Positions 224 to 49,064 of a stretch of 49,064 bases of DNA are shown one piece after another. Within the stretch, counting starts at the first letter, position 1, and each line of letters starts with the position of its first letter. A model generated the notes under the pieces. That model was given only the letters and a program-made list of their open reading frames with translations. It had not been told where the DNA came from and did no database searches. A program made the position numbers and the translations under genes. Location of the stretch: assembly GCA_027021615.1 (NCBI GenBank), contig JALUTY010000037.1:1-49064 (forward strand). Direction: 5' to 3'. The stretch comes from a bacterium. Its GTDB lineage: Bacteria; Desulfobacterota; Deferrisomatia; Deferrisomatales; Deferrisomataceae.

Positions 224-497
224 CGTTACTAATACCAACGGAACTATTGTCAGATCTCCGGCGTTCACAAGGGAACCAGCGGGTGGGGGGCTGGGAGAGC
301 TGGGCGCGGCCCCTCACGTCGCCGCGCCCTCACCAAGCCGGAATCGCCTTGGAAGTTCCGGAACTCCCGCCACCGGCGCCCCGGCCTACCGGGCTGACGA
401 CGGCATGCGAAGGCGCGGCGAAAGGGGTGCCGCACTCGCGCCCGGCCGGAGCCAGCCCCCCACCCGCGTCCGGCAATACCTTCGTAGGCCTTAGTAG
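224..497 (-). repeat. palindromic MITE-like repeat, copy 1 (inverted relative to copies 2 and 3)
   Basis: This 274-bp segment is the reverse complement of copy 2 at 19646-19921 with roughly 95% identity by hand alignment. Its ends form an imperfect terminal inverted repeat: GTTACTAATACC at the left against GCTACTAAGGCC at the right. The centre (351-368) is a near-perfect palindrome, GGAAGTTCCGGAACTCCC. Subterminal G-rich blocks near both ends are also inverted, so the whole unit could fold as one long hairpin. It encodes no convincing protein. No clear target-site duplication is visible. Confidence 0.85.
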
Positions 498-753
498 CGT
501 ACCACCCCTTGCGGCCCCTGGAAGCCTCCTCGGGTACCGCAAAGGGTCCGTCCCTGGAACCGGAACCGAGGCCGCCCCCCAACTTCGGCACCTCCGACCA
601 CGTAACGGACGGGTGAGAAGGGAGGTGCAACCCAGCCGAGGGCACCGAAACAAGCTTGTCGGGGGCGACAGAAGGGGGGAAGATCCTAGCCCCACACTCC
701 CCCTCGCCCGTGATGCAATGCCGAAAAAGGCGGGGTCGTGCCCAGAGCGTGTG
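498..753. other. intergenic region, no gene recognised
   Basis: This stretch lies between repeat copy 1 and the leader repeat of the Crp/Fnr gene. Open frames through it have no recognisable domain and no ribosome binding site, and I see no RNA gene. The promoter of the downstream regulator is presumably here or in the following leader, but I cannot place it. Confidence 0.5.
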
Positions 754-19645: not shown

Positions 19646-19921
19646 CTACTAAGGCCTACGAAGGTATTGCCGGACGCGGGTGGGGGACTGGCTCCGGCCG
19701 GGCGCGAGTGCGGCACCCTTTTCGCCGCGCCTTCGCATGCCGTTGTCAGCCCGGTAGGCCGGGGCGCCGGTGGCGGAAGTTCCGGAACTTCCAAGGTGAT
19801 TCAGGCTTGGTGAGGGCGCGGCGACGTGAGGGGCCGCACCCGGCTCTCCACCAGCCCCCCACCCGCTGGTTCCCTTGTGAGCGCCGGGGATCTGACAATC
19901 GTTCCGTTGGTATTAGTAACG
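19646..19921 (+). repeat. palindromic MITE-like repeat, copy 2 (best-preserved)
   Basis: This 276-bp unit has ends CTACTAAGGCC and GGTATTAGTAACG that form an imperfect terminal inverted repeat (about 13 of 18 positions). GGAAGTTCCGGAACTTCC at 19775-19792 is a perfect 18-bp palindrome centred at 19783.5, exactly the midpoint of the unit. Subterminal GGGTGGGGG...CTGG blocks are inverted too. Copy 1 (224-497) is the same unit in reverse; copy 3 (48927 on) is the same unit in this orientation. The element lies 13 bp after the CFA-synthase stop. Confidence 0.88.
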
Positions 19922-22386: not shown

Positions 22387-23748
22387 GTGGAACCCCGAAT
22401 CCTCCTGGTGGAGGACGACCCCCTGTACGCCGGGATGCTCTTCGAGGCACTGACCCAGGCGGGCTACAAGGTCGAGCACGCCGACACCGTGGCCTCGGCC
22501 GTGGCCTGCCTGGAGTTGGAGTCGTTCGCTGTGGCGATCCTGGACGTGCGGCTGCCCGACGGCGACGGGCTCGACCTCCTCCGAACCCTGCTCGAGCTCC
22601 AGCCCGGGTGCTCGGCCCTGGTGATGACCGGCCACGCTTCGGTGGAGTCGGCCGTGGATGCCATGAAGATCGGGGCGGCAGACTACCTGCCCAAACCGTT
22701 CCCCACCGAGGTCATCCTCCTGAAGCTGAAACGCCTGCTCCGGGCCCGGCGGCTGGAAGAGGAGCTCGAGGGCCTCCGAGCGCGGGCGTCCGACACGCGG
22801 TTCGTGGGCCAGAGCCCCAGGGTGCGCCGCCTGCTGAGCACCGTTCGATCGGTGGCGCCCAAGAACGCCAACGTGCTGATCCAGGGGGAGAGCGGCACCG
22901 GCAAGGAGCTCATCGCCGAGATGCTCCACCGCCTGAGCCCCCGGGCGGAGGGACCGTTCGTGCGGGTCAACTGCGGGGCCATCCCCGAAAGCCTCCTGGA
23001 GTCGGAGCTGTTCGGCCACGAGCGGGGCGCCTTCACCGGCGCCGACCGCCGGCGCAGGGGCATGCTCGAGCAGGCCCACGGCGGCACGTTGTTCCTGGAC
23101 GAGGTGGGCGAGATCCCGCCGGCCATGCAGGTCAAGCTCTTAAGGGCCCTCCAGGAGCGCCGGATCCGACGGATCGGGGGGGAGAGCGAGATCGAGGTGG
23201 ACTTCCGCCTCGTGGCCGCCACCAATCGAGACGTGGAGGATCTGGTCCGGGGGGGCGAGATGCGCGAGGACTTCTACTTTCGGATCGCCGTGATTCCCCT
23301 GGAAGTGCCCCCCCTGCGGGACCGGCCGGGGGACATCCCCCTCCTGGCCCAGCACTTCGTCGCGAGGCTCAGCCGCATTCATGGGACCGAGCCCGTGCGT
23401 CTGAGCCCCGAAGCGCTGGATCTCCTGGCCGAGTACCCGTGGCCCGGCAACGTACGGGAGCTGGAGAACGTGATCGAGCGGCTGCAGGTGCTCACCCCCG
23501 GCGACACGATCACCCCCCGCCATCTTCCCCCCGAGGTGCGCCGGGTGCGGCCCGCAACGGGCACGGTGTACGAAGTGGTGTCCACCCGGCTCACCCTGCG
23601 GGAGGCGGTGCATCGGTTCGAGCGCCGCTTCATCGAGCAGGTGCTGGCCGAGGAGGGAGGCAACCGCACCGCGGCCGCGGCCCGGCTCGGGATCTCCCGC
23701 AAGAATCTCTGGGAGAAGCTGGGGGGTGGGAGCGTTACCGGTAGGTAA
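22387..23748 (+). CDS. NtrC-family sigma-54-dependent response regulator
   Basis: This 453-residue protein has a receiver domain with phospho-acceptor D53, an AAA+ domain with Walker A GESGTGKE (167-174) and the sigma-54 contact loop GAFTGA (214-219), and a C-terminal Fis-type HTH ([22 protein letters not shown]). GTG 22387 lies 4 bp after the kinase stop. Its last codons, VTGR-stop, are themselves the palindrome CGTTACCGGTAGGTAACG. That palindrome has a twin at 23805 and a sigma-54 promoter beyond, so this regulator very probably activates the reductase operon. Confidence 0.94.
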
Positions 23749-23750
23749 CG
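23733..23750. promoter_or_regulatory. upstream activator site 1, inside the regulator stop region
   Basis: CGTTACCGGTAGGTAACG is a 7-bp perfect inverted repeat with a 4-nt spacer, covering the last codons and TAA of the response regulator. The core GTTACC-N4-GGTAAC is repeated 71 bp downstream. It lies about 250 bp upstream of the predicted sigma-54 start point, a workable enhancer distance for an NtrC-type protein. Confidence 0.65.
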
Positions 23751-23804
23751 CCTGGGGGCCTCGTTTCTCCTCTGCCGACAGGGCTCTCGTTCCCCTCCGC
23801 AACT

Positions 23805-23820
23805 GTTACCTCCCGGTAAC
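23805..23820. promoter_or_regulatory. upstream activator site 2
   Basis: GTTACCTCCCGGTAAC has the same GTTACC-N4-GGTAAC architecture as site 1 with an unrelated spacer, which argues that the arms are a protein-binding motif rather than a copied sequence. It is about 180 bp upstream of the predicted start point. Confidence 0.65.
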
Positions 23821-23902
23821 GCCCCACCCCGGACATGGCCGCGTCCGGCGCTCCGCCAGGCCCCCCGCCCCCGAGCCTTGGCGCGGCTCGAGAGCTGCTC
23901 GG

Positions 23903-23966
23903 CCGCCCAGTCGCCCAGCGGGCCGAGGCCCCAGACCGAAGACCGTTGACCGACGACCGAAGTCAC
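23903..23966 (+). repeat. composite octamer-heptamer repeat, array 4
   Basis: Octamers CCGCCCAG and TCGCCCAG plus CGGGCCGAGG are followed by heptamers at 23932-23966: CAGACCG, AAGACCG, TTGACCG, ACGACCG, AAGTCAC. The arrangement matches 15045-15105. It lies between the activator sites and the sigma-54 promoter, so it sets part of the loop length. Confidence 0.7.
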
Positions 23967-23972
23967 ATTGGT

Positions 23973-23988
23973 CGGCATTGCCCTTGCA
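23973..23988 (+). promoter_or_regulatory. sigma-54 (-24/-12) promoter of the molybdenum reductase operon
   Basis: CGGCATTGCCCTTGCA fits the -24/-12 consensus TGGCACG-N4-TTGCW: GG at 23974-23975 and GC at 23986-23987 are separated by exactly 10 bases, and the TTGCA block is perfect. It is about 95 bp before the first reductase gene and downstream of twin palindromes for the NtrC-type regulator encoded immediately upstream. Confidence 0.7.
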
Positions 23989-24081
23989 GAGCAATCCGGC
24001 CGGAGGAGGGTTCCATCGGCCGCTCGATCGGGGACGGCCTTTCCTCACTTGCGCCCGGCGGAGAGCCGGCAGGAGGTGGTC

Positions 24082-33743: not shown

Positions 33744-34040
33744 TCACCCGACTTCCATCGGCCGGCAGGTCATGGCGCCGCCGTCCACGGGGCAGACCTT
33801 GTGGCAGTGGCAGTCACCCATGCAGTTGCCGGGGTTCGCGACCCGGGCTTTCTTCTCCCCCTCCACCTCGACCATCTCGTAGCACCCGCCCAGGCACACG
33901 GCCGCGCACCTGCCGCAGCCCACGCATTTGGCCGGGTCCACGTCCCGCACGAACATGGGAATCCAGGGCGAGCCGTCCTGGCGACGGAAGGTGAGGTAGG
34001 CCTTCTCGGAGCCGATCCCCCCGGAGCAGCAGTCGCTCAC
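33744..34040 (-). CDS. ferredoxin with two [4Fe-4S] sites (FdxB-like) in the mer cluster
   Basis: This 98-residue protein has an N-terminal MSDCCSGG, then CVGCGRCAAVCLGGC and CMGDCHCHKVCPVDGGAMTC. The order resembles nif-type ferredoxin III. The start overlaps the merP stop, so it is coupled to merP. No nitrogenase genes are in the window. It might donate electrons to a mercury or metalloid enzyme; no precise partner can be named. Extra cysteines could also bind metal. Confidence 0.85.
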   Translation of the reverse strand: MSDCCSGGIGSEKAYLTFRRQDGSPWIPMFVRDVDPAKCVGCGRCAAVCLGGCYEMVEVEGEKKARVANPGNCMGDCHCHKVCPVDGGAMTCRPMEVG

Positions 34041-34360
34041 GGCTTCCCCCCCTCTCCCTCGGACACCGGCGCAGCCCGGAACCCCGTGGAGTTCACGGCT
34101 TCGATCAGGGCCTCCTCGCTGGTCCGGGCGGGATCGTAGGTGACCACGGCCTTCTTCTCCCGAAAGCTCACCTCCGCGGCCTCAACGCCATCGACTCTCT
34201 TCAGGGCCGCCTTCACCGAGAACGTGCACGAGGGGCAGGTCATGCCCTCCACCCGGAGCACGGCGGTGCGGCTCCCGGCGCAACCGGCGGGCCGGGGCGA
34301 TGCCGCCACCGCGCCGAGAACGAGCAGGAAAACGAACGCCACAAACCCGACTTTCTTCAT
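34037..34360 (-). CDS. merP: MerP-like periplasmic mercury-binding protein
   Basis: This 107-residue protein has a signal peptide (residues 1-25) and one HMA domain with the GMTCPSC site, followed by VKAALKRVDGVEAAEVSF. MerP binds Hg(II) in the periplasm and hands it to MerT. ATG 34360 has GGAGGTGA upstream; the earlier in-frame ATG has none. A palindromic repeat element starts 26 bp upstream and separates it from merT. Confidence 0.9.
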   Translation of the reverse strand: MKKVGFVAFVFLLVLGAVAASPRPAGCAGSRTAVLRVEGMTCPSCTFSVKAALKRVDGVEAAEVSFREKKAVVTYDPARTSEEALIEAVNSTGFRAAPVSEGEGGKP

Positions 34361-34386
34361 TCCATCACCTCCCGCCACGCTTCATC

Positions 34387-34664
34387 CCAAGTTGTGTTCA
34401 AAGCTGTCGGACCCCCTGCGCGGTGGGGTGGGGGTCTGGTGGAGCGCCGGGCGTGGCGCCTACAATCGCTGTATCCGGCACTCAGCCGACGCCTGTCCCC
34501 AGGGTGATGCCGAAAATGCCTTGTCAACGTTCGCTGTTTCAACGGCCAAGGAGCCCCAGGGCTGAGTGCCGGATGCAGCGTGAGTCGGATGCTGCACTCA
34601 CGCCCGGCCGGAACCAGGCCCCCACCCCAGCCGCCGGATGGCTCTCTGTTTGAACGCAACTTGG
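34387..34664. repeat. second palindromic MITE-like element, inserted between merT and merP
   Basis: This 278-bp unit is bounded by 16-bp terminal inverted repeats with one mismatch: CCAAGTTGTGTTCAAA and TTTGAACGCAACTTGG. Inversion extends inward in blocks for about 100 bp each side, for example GGTGGGGTGGGGG and ATCCGGCACTCAGC at both ends. Its subterminal block GGTGGGGG-CTGG-TCCGGCCGGGCG-GAGTGC also occurs in copies 1-3 of the other family, so the two are related. It starts 2 bp after the merT stop codon and encodes nothing recognisable. Confidence 0.8.
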
Positions 34665-34666
34665 TA

Positions 34667-35053
34667 TCAGCCCATCAACAGGGGCAGGAACCGAGGGAAC
34701 AAGAACAACGCTGCGGCCAGGATCGTGGCGATCCACAGGATCACCCGCTGCACCCGAAGCGACGCAGGCGCGCAGCAGGCCTCCCCGCTCCGGGGCCGCC
34801 AGTAGGCCCGGTAGAACCCGTAACCCAGAAACACCACCATCAGCCCGCCGAACCACGGCCGGTAGGGCTCGAACCGGGCCAGGGCGCCGGCCCCGCTCAC
34901 GCCCAGGAACACGGCCAGAAGCGGCCCGATGCAGCAGGCCGAGGCCAGAAGCCCGCTCAACACCGCGCCCACAGCCCCCAGAGCCGTTCCCCGAGCCGAC
35001 CGCGGGCGGGGATCCACCGGCAGGGCGCAGGCGTTGTCTTCCCGACGACTCAT
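34667..35053 (-). CDS. merT: MerT-like mercuric ion transporter
   Basis: This 128-residue protein has three predicted membrane helices. The vicinal cysteine pair in helix 1 (LASACCIGPLLAV) takes Hg(II) from MerP, and a second pair (EACCAPAS) lies in the cytoplasmic loop, as in MerT. It imports Hg(II) for reduction by MerA. It follows a thioredoxin-like gene on the same strand and is followed at once by the inserted palindromic element. Confidence 0.92.
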   Translation of the reverse strand: MSRREDNACALPVDPRPRSARGTALGAVGAVLSGLLASACCIGPLLAVFLGVSGAGALARFEPYRPWFGGLMVVFLGYGFYRAYWRPRSGEACCAPASLRVQRVILWIATILAAALFLFPRFLPLLMG

Positions 35054-35074: not shown

Positions 35075-35344
35075 TCAGGGGCACGGCGTGCCAACTCCGG
35101 AGGCCCGAAGGGCGGCCTCGTCGATGCCCCGGCCGGCGCAGCAGCCCGCGAGCTTCCCGTCCACGGCCACGGCCGGCACCGAGCTCACACCCAGGGCCTT
35201 GGCCCGGGCGGCCACGGCCGGGTCGTTCATGTCGAGCACCGTGACCTCGCAGTCCGGACACGCGAGCTTTTTCACCCGCTCCACCGCCTCCTGGCACACG
35301 GTACACCCCGCGCTGAACACCTCTACTTTGCGCTTCGCACTCAT
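35075..35344 (-). CDS. thioredoxin/glutaredoxin-like protein of the mer operon
   Basis: An 89-residue thioredoxin-fold protein with C14-TV-C17, a second CxxC-like pair (CPDC) and VPAVAVDGKLAGCCAG. It has no signal peptide. The start codon at 35344 overlaps the stop of the MerC-like gene and follows GGAGGTG. In a mercury operon it may bind Hg(II) on the cytoplasmic side or keep MerA and the transporter thiols reduced. Confidence 0.85.
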   Translation of the reverse strand: MSAKRKVEVFSAGCTVCQEAVERVKKLACPDCEVTVLDMNDPAVAARAKALGVSSVPAVAVDGKLAGCCAGRGIDEAALRASGVGTPCP

Positions 35345-35793
35345 GGCTTCACCTCCATCGGGTTTCGGCTGCGTTCCGCTGGGTGTGCTCCCTGGCCGGC
35401 CGGAACGCACGCCGGACAGGGGCCCGGCCGTTTGGGCCAGGCGTTCCAGATCGAGGCCCCGATCAGAAGAACGATGCCTGCGTACATGATCCCGTCGCTC
35501 TGCAGGCCGAACTTGCCAGCGAGAAGGACTGCCGCCCCCACCGAGCCCAGGGCGAACGGCCCGTACCCCCTGCGGGTCCGGGCCCGAAACGCCAAGGCCC
35601 ACAGGGCCACGGCCAGCCCCGCCAGGGTCAACGGCAGGAGGTAGGGGGTGTAGTTGAAGGCGCCCACGCCCAGGGCGCTCAGGAGCCCCGCGTAGGCCGG
35701 CCAGCAGGCCGGACACGTCAGCTTGGGCAGGAGCGCCACGGCCACCGCAGCGGCCGTGGCCAGCACCCCTTTGCGGGCCGTCGGCGTGTTCAT
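35341..35793 (-). CDS. small four-helix membrane protein, MerC-like
   Basis: This 150-residue protein has about four transmembrane helices, a CPAC pair in the first (LPKLTCPACWPAYAGLLSALG) and a CPAC pair in the C-terminal tail. Paired cysteines in helix 1 are typical of mercuric transporters of the MerC/MerF/MerT group. I can place it only loosely in MerC. The ATG overlaps the merR stop (ATGA), so it is the second gene of the autoregulated operon. Confidence 0.75.
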   Translation of the reverse strand: MNTPTARKGVLATAAAVAVALLPKLTCPACWPAYAGLLSALGVGAFNYTPYLLPLTLAGLAVALWALAFRARTRRGYGPFALGSVGAAVLLAGKFGLQSDGIMYAGIVLLIGASIWNAWPKRPGPCPACVPAGQGAHPAERSRNPMEVKP

Positions 35794-48926: not shown

Positions 48927-49064
48927 TACTAAGGCCTACGAAGGTATTGCCAGACGCGGGTGGGGGGCTGGCTCCGGCCGGGCGCGAGTGCGGCACCCCT
49001 TTCGCCGCGCCTTCGCATGCCGTCGTCAGCCCGGTAGGTCGGGGCGCCGGTGGCGGAAGTTCCG
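48927..49064 (+). repeat. palindromic MITE-like repeat, copy 3, cut at its midpoint by the window end
   Basis: From TACTAAGGCCTACG the sequence follows copy 2 closely for 138 bp and stops in GGAAGTTCCG, the centre of the palindrome. Orientation is the same as copy 2 and opposite to copy 1. The stop at the palindrome centre suggests a contig that ended at a repeat. Confidence 0.85.

Follow-up and report, generated by a model that had tools for sequence, protein, structure and literature searches.

Insertion between merT and merP

The window analyzed here, a stretch of 49,064 nucleotides from a bacterium of the family Deferrisomataceae, carries a mer operon on its minus strand. In this operon, merT (34667..35053, minus strand; proteins 84–93% identical in the genomes G001–G003) is followed by merP (34037..34360 from its ATG, minus strand), and the two genes are separated by an inserted, palindromic, non-coding element of 282 bp (34385–34666). 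The protein encoded between merP and merA (33744–34040, minus strand) is small and ferredoxin-like and has two cysteine clusters. Two further genes lie between merR and merT (35075–35716, minus strand), one for a small membrane protein and the other for a thioredoxin-fold-like protein that has paired cysteines (MSAKRKVEVFSAGCTVCQEA); both apparently belong to the operon.

In G001 and G002, which represent the same genus, and in G003, a member of the same family, merT is followed by merP in the same order with a gap of about 24 bp and without the insert. The merT gene of these three genomes ends in GGGCTGA, and the window reads GGGC-TGA, the element (TACCAAG ... CTTGGGA) and TGA-AGCG, so that the target TGA occurs twice and its first copy is the merT stop. 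On the forward strand the two copies read TCA; the left one (34382..34384) exists as a single copy in the sister genomes, and the right one (34667..34669, minus strand) is the stop codon. The contig L178 shows the same insert-free gap, with a sequence identical to that of G001, and possibly comes from the same genome. The insert is likewise missing from mer operons that are more distant (G005/L150 and L149), whose spacers have diverged. The preliminary description had called for such a comparison, which reveals that the insert is not a constant feature of mer operons; since it is absent from the relatives examined, the insertion is probably younger than the split from G002. The start of the insert had been placed 2 bp past the merT stop, but the distance is 0 bp, as the right TCA copy is itself the stop codon.

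The element landed exactly at the merT stop codon, which the target duplication rebuilt: the duplication of the 3-bp target (TCA/TCA) retained the TGA of merT. A large insert could thus enter an operon without damage to either protein, since the target that was duplicated is the stop codon itself. The ribosome site of merP (GGAGGTG) is also retained.

The termini are formed by A tips, namely TCCCAAGTTGTGTTCAAA on the left (34385..34402, plus strand) and TACCAAGTTGCGTTCAAA, which is also the consensus, on the right (34649..34666, minus strand). Within them, the 16-bp terminal inverted repeats with one mismatch that had been noticed initially were found again at 34387–34402 and 34649–34664. The neck follows, with a left arm TGGGGTGGGGGTCTGGT (34424..34440, plus strand) forming an inverted repeat with the right arm (34613..34629, minus strand); both arms are of the B type, and the right one has CCTGG against TCTGG on the left, as in B elements. 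The necks enclose core I (34441..34612), the inner hairpin common to A-tip and C-tip elements, whose inner stem consists of a left arm CGCTGTATCCGGCACTCAGCC (34467..34487, plus strand) paired with a right arm (34560..34580, minus strand) as its inverted repeat around a variable apical loop (34488..34559). The unit had originally been described as a palindrome of 278 bp; its palindromic nature was borne out by the nested repeats and by folding far from chance, while its length is 282 bp, plus the 3-bp duplication. RNA folding of the element gave −158.7 kcal/mol against −116.1 ± 4.9 for shuffles (z = −8.7), and for DNA folding z was −7.3. Neither a transposase-like reading frame nor a match to a described RNA family in Rfam was detected within the element.

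The element has terminal inverted repeats, a target duplication and an empty site in relatives; it is short, lacks a transposase gene and has many copies in the genome. These are the properties of a MITE, and it is very probably a MITE-like non-autonomous transposon with a modular build.

Copies and target of the A tips

With up to 2 mismatches allowed, the A tip recurs at 93 sites of the genome, whereas the reversed control has a single match; tip counts were taken from full mismatch scans, and the censuses rest on search matches plus 1.5 Mb of stretches. An identical 3-bp flank lies directly outside the tips in 40 of 64 A-tip pairs and almost never at other offsets. The flank consensus is TNA (T in 89%, any base, A in 90%), and the middle base agrees in 39 of the 48 A elements that have TNA on both sides. 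Empty sites of A elements in G002 (L079, L080, L108) again gave 3-bp duplications, with at most one base changed.

On a conservative count, 19 of the 64 A elements are situated exactly at a stop codon, compared with 10.8% of comparable sites (codon-scored gene map; p = 3e-5, a value that is too small because some copies are orthologous between genomes). The count rises to 37 if any open frame of at least 80 codons is admitted, and no excess was seen with a cruder gene map; the excess at stop codons is suggestive. Because TNA includes TGA and TAA and the target is duplicated, stop codons are preserved at insertion.

A tips are present in 31 of 395 genomes of the phylum. At the loci read in other phylum genomes, TNA duplications are present as well, and the tips surround either other hairpins or nothing at all (43 bp); the hairpins seen at L344–L365, for example, begin with GTAGGGGCGCAATT, CTGTCATTCTGAACGG or CATTGCGAGGAGC. 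The wider distribution of the A coat suggests that it is probably older than the core.

B and C tips and the 276-bp family

The 276-bp type of element, which has B tips and the core Bc, is represented in the window by copies at 224..498 (plus strand) and 19647..19918 (minus strand) and by a copy cut by the contig end at 48927..49064 (minus strand). Compared with these copies, the tips of the merT–merP element are unrelated, as had been stated at the outset. The B family is young, most of its full copies being 93–96% identical to the query, and 24 of its 31 elements lie at TA. One B copy is nested inside an A palindrome behind a RAYT gene; in G002 the same palindrome is empty, which reveals the TA site directly (GAATGTAACTTGG). 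For the C tips, the TA duplication is weaker (8–9 of 24).

Two groups of IS630-type transposons were found in G002. The first (3 copies, 1.1 kb) has the left end TACTAATACCTACAAAAGTATTGCCAG and the right end TACTAAGACCTTCAAAAGTATTGCCGGA, which match the unequal B tips side by side (TACTAATACC on the left and TACTAAGACC on the right). The second (L263–L265 and the partial copy L266) ends in TTATTAACCCGGCGATTAAATAGGCGC and TTATTAACCAGGTGGCTAAATAGGCGCG, and these match the C tips (TTATTAACCCGGCGA and TTATTAACCAGGTGG), again separately on the left and right. At the level of sequence, these matches establish the B and C tips as the ends of two separate IS630-type transposons, so that for both tips an autonomous element sharing their ends exists in a sister genome. 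The B type thus has the TA duplication and the IS630-like ends of an IS630/Tc1-mariner MITE. The merT–merP element was also considered as such a MITE and rejected, given its 3-bp TNA duplication and unrelated ends.

No IS630 transposase above the threshold was found in the draft genome of the studied organism itself, perhaps because identical copies break assemblies. The window contig ends at or near 276-bp repeats (224–498 and 48927–49064), as do several other contigs of the assembly, which suggests that these repeats probably break it. Nested insertions are common (L045, L108, L005), with a B element joined to a C element. Another GC-rich palindrome with a weak neck match lies at 23700–24000 of the window (GGGGGTGGGAGCGTTACCGGTAGGTAACGCC ... 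GGCGTTACCTCCCGGTAACGCCCCACCCC, in an order determined by eye).

Exchange of cores between different tips

In total, 183 core matches were collected in 1.49 Mb, and tip groups were set before tree building. Core I is bounded by A tips on both sides in 19 cases and by C tips in 8 (11 with the related form Id), and core II has A tips in 10 cases and C tips in 10. Two clear cases of mixed elements with one C tip and one A tip were detected. One core I sequence from an A-tip element and one from a C-tip element are 94% identical over 171 bp, whereas the tips themselves are unalignable. In the tree of 58 cores, from which tips and necks were excluded, C-tip elements appear in two places, one of them inside an A-tip clade with starred support. 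On this core I tree, a single clade was rejected both for the C tips (p-AU = 2e-81) and for the A tips (p-AU = 2e-5). The core occurs in four genomes, all of one family (G000–G003), and was not found in 55 other genomes of the order and phylum.

The element between merT and merP is a mosaic of three parts: its tips are of the A type, its neck is of the B type in either arm, and its apex comes from the core family shared by A and C elements. The subterminal block that it shares with the 276-bp type extends over 41 bp at 88% identity (E = 5e-9). Its neck arms match those of the B2 elements at 21/22 and 23/23 positions, and the closest core I sibling with A tips reaches 13/22 and 19/23; its apex matches that of an A sibling at 123/160 positions and that of B2 at 24/160. 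Among the 19 A-tip core I elements, it alone has GTGGGG in both neck arms, and 16 have GCAAGG in both. The left-arm T opposite a right-arm C in the neck is also found in the B2 elements. The presence of the block on both arms, together with the scores of 21/22 and 23/23 against B2, shows that it is no chance low-complexity match, a concern raised in the preliminary description. Since the tips and apex match the A siblings and the neck matches B2, the neck, which was the block first noticed, is evidently the borrowed part of the element. In two separate copies (C107 and C45), a short insert beginning with GACGTCGGTCTGCC lies beside the neck.

The near-identical cores within A and C tips, the tree and the mosaic structure of the merT–merP element together indicate that the core is a conserved hairpin shuffled between ends used by different transposases. 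Two element types with a shared core had been proposed at first: the neck is indeed common to the merT–merP element and the 276-bp type, but the apex differs from that of the 276-bp family and the whole core is not shared with it, the full exchange having occurred between A and C tips. The suggestion that different enzymes mobilize the same cargo agrees with the 3-bp TNA duplication of the A elements as against TA for B, and with the separate IS630 transposons matched by the B and C tips. Modular evolution by exchanged tips likewise gains support, as cores I and II occur within both A and C tips and neither tip type forms one clade.

One hairpin core is associated with ends that different enzymes use, and its tips have switched at least three or four times. 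These repeated changes of ends make the exchange datable, mappable and testable. In the part of the literature that we covered, no report was found of a bacterial core that is associated with ends of more than one kind of transposase.

Proposed mechanism

The explanation that we hold with strong confidence, as a whole, is that of a modular MITE-like transposon with tips, a core, exchange between them and an effect on the operon. A transposase acting in trans would cut and join the A repeats, opening TNA targets and leaving a 3-bp duplication. Here the target was the merT TGA stop, with the insertion and the duplication directly visible in the comparison with relatives. The core is a conserved hairpin not tied to one tip family, as it is found in A-tipped, C-tipped and other-tipped elements and has a neck in common with B. 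Recombination or gene conversion among dispersed elements, with the neck that they share in both arms as the anchor, would move the core, and the merT–merP element (A tips, B neck, core I apex) would be a visible product of such exchange. Because the left and right tips of a pair stay together, including their asymmetry, the interior was probably replaced inside an existing scaffold. With mixed A/C-tip elements being rare, a point against the explanation, the route of exchange is inferred. The operon would remain uncut at the protein level, and its merT–merP mRNA would gain a very stable predicted hairpin, which may affect processing or change the merP:merT ratio.

Alternatively, the A scaffold could have acquired its cores when another mobile hairpin inserted into the loop, a route of nesting that we regard as possible but rather doubtful. 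It would fit the tip-only A copies of 66–76 bp, the quite different hairpins enclosed by A tips in other phylum genomes and the true nestings known here (B inside A, IS inside A). However, no duplication of its own was recognized at the core boundary, some of the tip-only copies look like deletions, and the neck common to A and C elements on both arms favors recombination.

Exchange at the shared neck also allows a broader, tentative proposal, somewhat better placed than nested insertion, in which the unit of selection that lasts is the hairpin core: a mobile cargo, it would repeatedly change its terminal-repeat “coat” by conversion at the neck. A non-autonomous element is generally expected to die out once its transposase is lost; a core of this kind would survive the loss of any one transposase, and coat changing would give non-autonomous elements a general means of switching between host transposases. 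The A coat, enclosing different hairpins in different genomes across the phylum, parallels this proposal.

Stem structure of the core

Across the 58 aligned cores, 97.3% of cells pair, and 119 double-change cells fall at 13 pairs; when the partner was slid by 1–3 columns, pairing dropped to 37–41% with 8–26 double-change cells. Several stem pairs changed repeatedly on the tree. Stem pairing in the cores is maintained, either by selection or by arm-to-arm copying.

These data bear on the idea that selection maintains the hairpin core as a functional RNA or terminator, with the tips serving only its spread. This would be compatible with the modular explanation, and we consider it unlikely, slightly more so than nested insertion. 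The paired changes at 10–13 positions, repeated on the tree, keep the stem, the fold is strong and insertion at stop codons is frequent; but the element has no Rfam match, paired changes are expected from arm copying too, and TNA targeting together with tolerance accounts for the location at stop codons. The compensatory changes could accordingly come from copying between palindrome arms instead of selection. Outside the element, Rfam gave a sub-threshold match to Betaproteobacteria_toxic_sRNA at L010 2117–2175 (minus strand; 32.9 bits, gathering threshold 50).

Candidate transposases of the A tips

A transposase with A tips was found neither in G000–G003 nor in nine A-rich genomes of the phylum, which counts against the modular explanation. 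Among the matches to PF01609, the Pfam model used for this search, none in the 13 genomes searched had A tips as its own ends. A DDE_Tnp_1 insertion sequence located between two A tips in G002 (L340) was rejected as a partner: its six other copies lack A tips, and it is therefore nested. A 959-bp pair of A tips in G002 turned out to belong to two separate elements with a small gene between them. A 1.38-kb pair on contig C56 (L091) looks like two partial elements flanking an ordinary gene, aminotransferase-like by eye.

A RAYT (Y1 HUH) transposase was attractive by position, as in G000 and G002 a RAYT gene has an A palindrome directly after its stop codon (contig C83, the RAYT having a C-terminal DnaA-like helix), but it was rejected as the mobilizer because of the 3-bp duplication. 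At L148 361–760, an A palindrome sits on the stop codon of the RAYT gene with a 276-bp B element nested inside, and the sister genome has the palindrome only. That the A elements are REP/BIME-type elements moved by RAYT is very improbable, given that their 3-bp duplication is exact and their target strictly TNA; among the genes with a targeted stop codon, which are many, the RAYT gene is only one, and no A tips adjoin the other RAYT loci examined. Such a duplication at TNA is not known from RAYT or IS200/605 insertion.

Least probable of all, and close to dismissed, is a single old MITE family within which one original tip diverged into the different tips. The hairpins of all types do resemble one another in GC-richness, size and neck, but the A and C tips cannot be aligned around cores up to 94% identical, the duplication length differs, the B tips correspond to one IS630 transposon and the C tips to another, separate one, and the C tips occupy two places on the core tree.

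Comparison with known systems

The modular element described here can be set beside several groups of small mobile elements. The A elements have the TNA target and 3-bp duplication characteristic of the IS1031 group of the IS5 family, for which a 5′-TNA-3′ target and an exclusively 3-bp direct repeat have been described (PMC12016507); the A tip differs, however, from the ISLrh end quoted in the same work.

The IS630-derived MITEs (RUP, Correia type) use a TA target. The B and C tips match IS630-type ends, whereas the merT–merP element differs in its A tips and 3-bp TNA duplication.

BIMEs and REP elements with RAYT are mosaic palindromic intergenic repeats (PMC2817692), with REP units of about 20–40 bp (PMC3733652). 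Insertion without target duplication, as expected for REP/RAYT, does not describe the merT–merP element, and the target duplication of the A elements in general does not fit REP. TIMEs are mosaic, non-autonomous miniature elements derived from Tn3, the mosaics arising partly by recombination between copies (PMC4133298); they differ in having Tn3 ends, in being usually single copy and in carrying a mosaic cargo between two copies rather than exchanging tips around one hairpin.

The Chunjie MITE of Geobacter uraniireducens is described as non-coding, 178–235 bp long and present in about 38 copies with tips and repeats, one of them in an operon (PMC10969869). Going by this description, it resembles the merT–merP element in its MITE nature, in its approximate size and in having entered an operon; tip exchange does not figure in the passage that describes it (PMC10969869).

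By analogy of build, the closest precedent for tip exchange appears to be the streptococcal BOX elements. In Streptococcus suis, two tip pairs (boxA/boxC and boxE/boxF) have been reported around the same boxB modules (PMC3049150). As here, these are composite small mobile hairpins in which different tip pairs enclose the same middle module, a likeness that concerns the build and implies no sequence relation. The elements described here differ in that their tips are tied to transposon ends with two types of duplication, and in having one large hairpin core instead of tandem boxB units.
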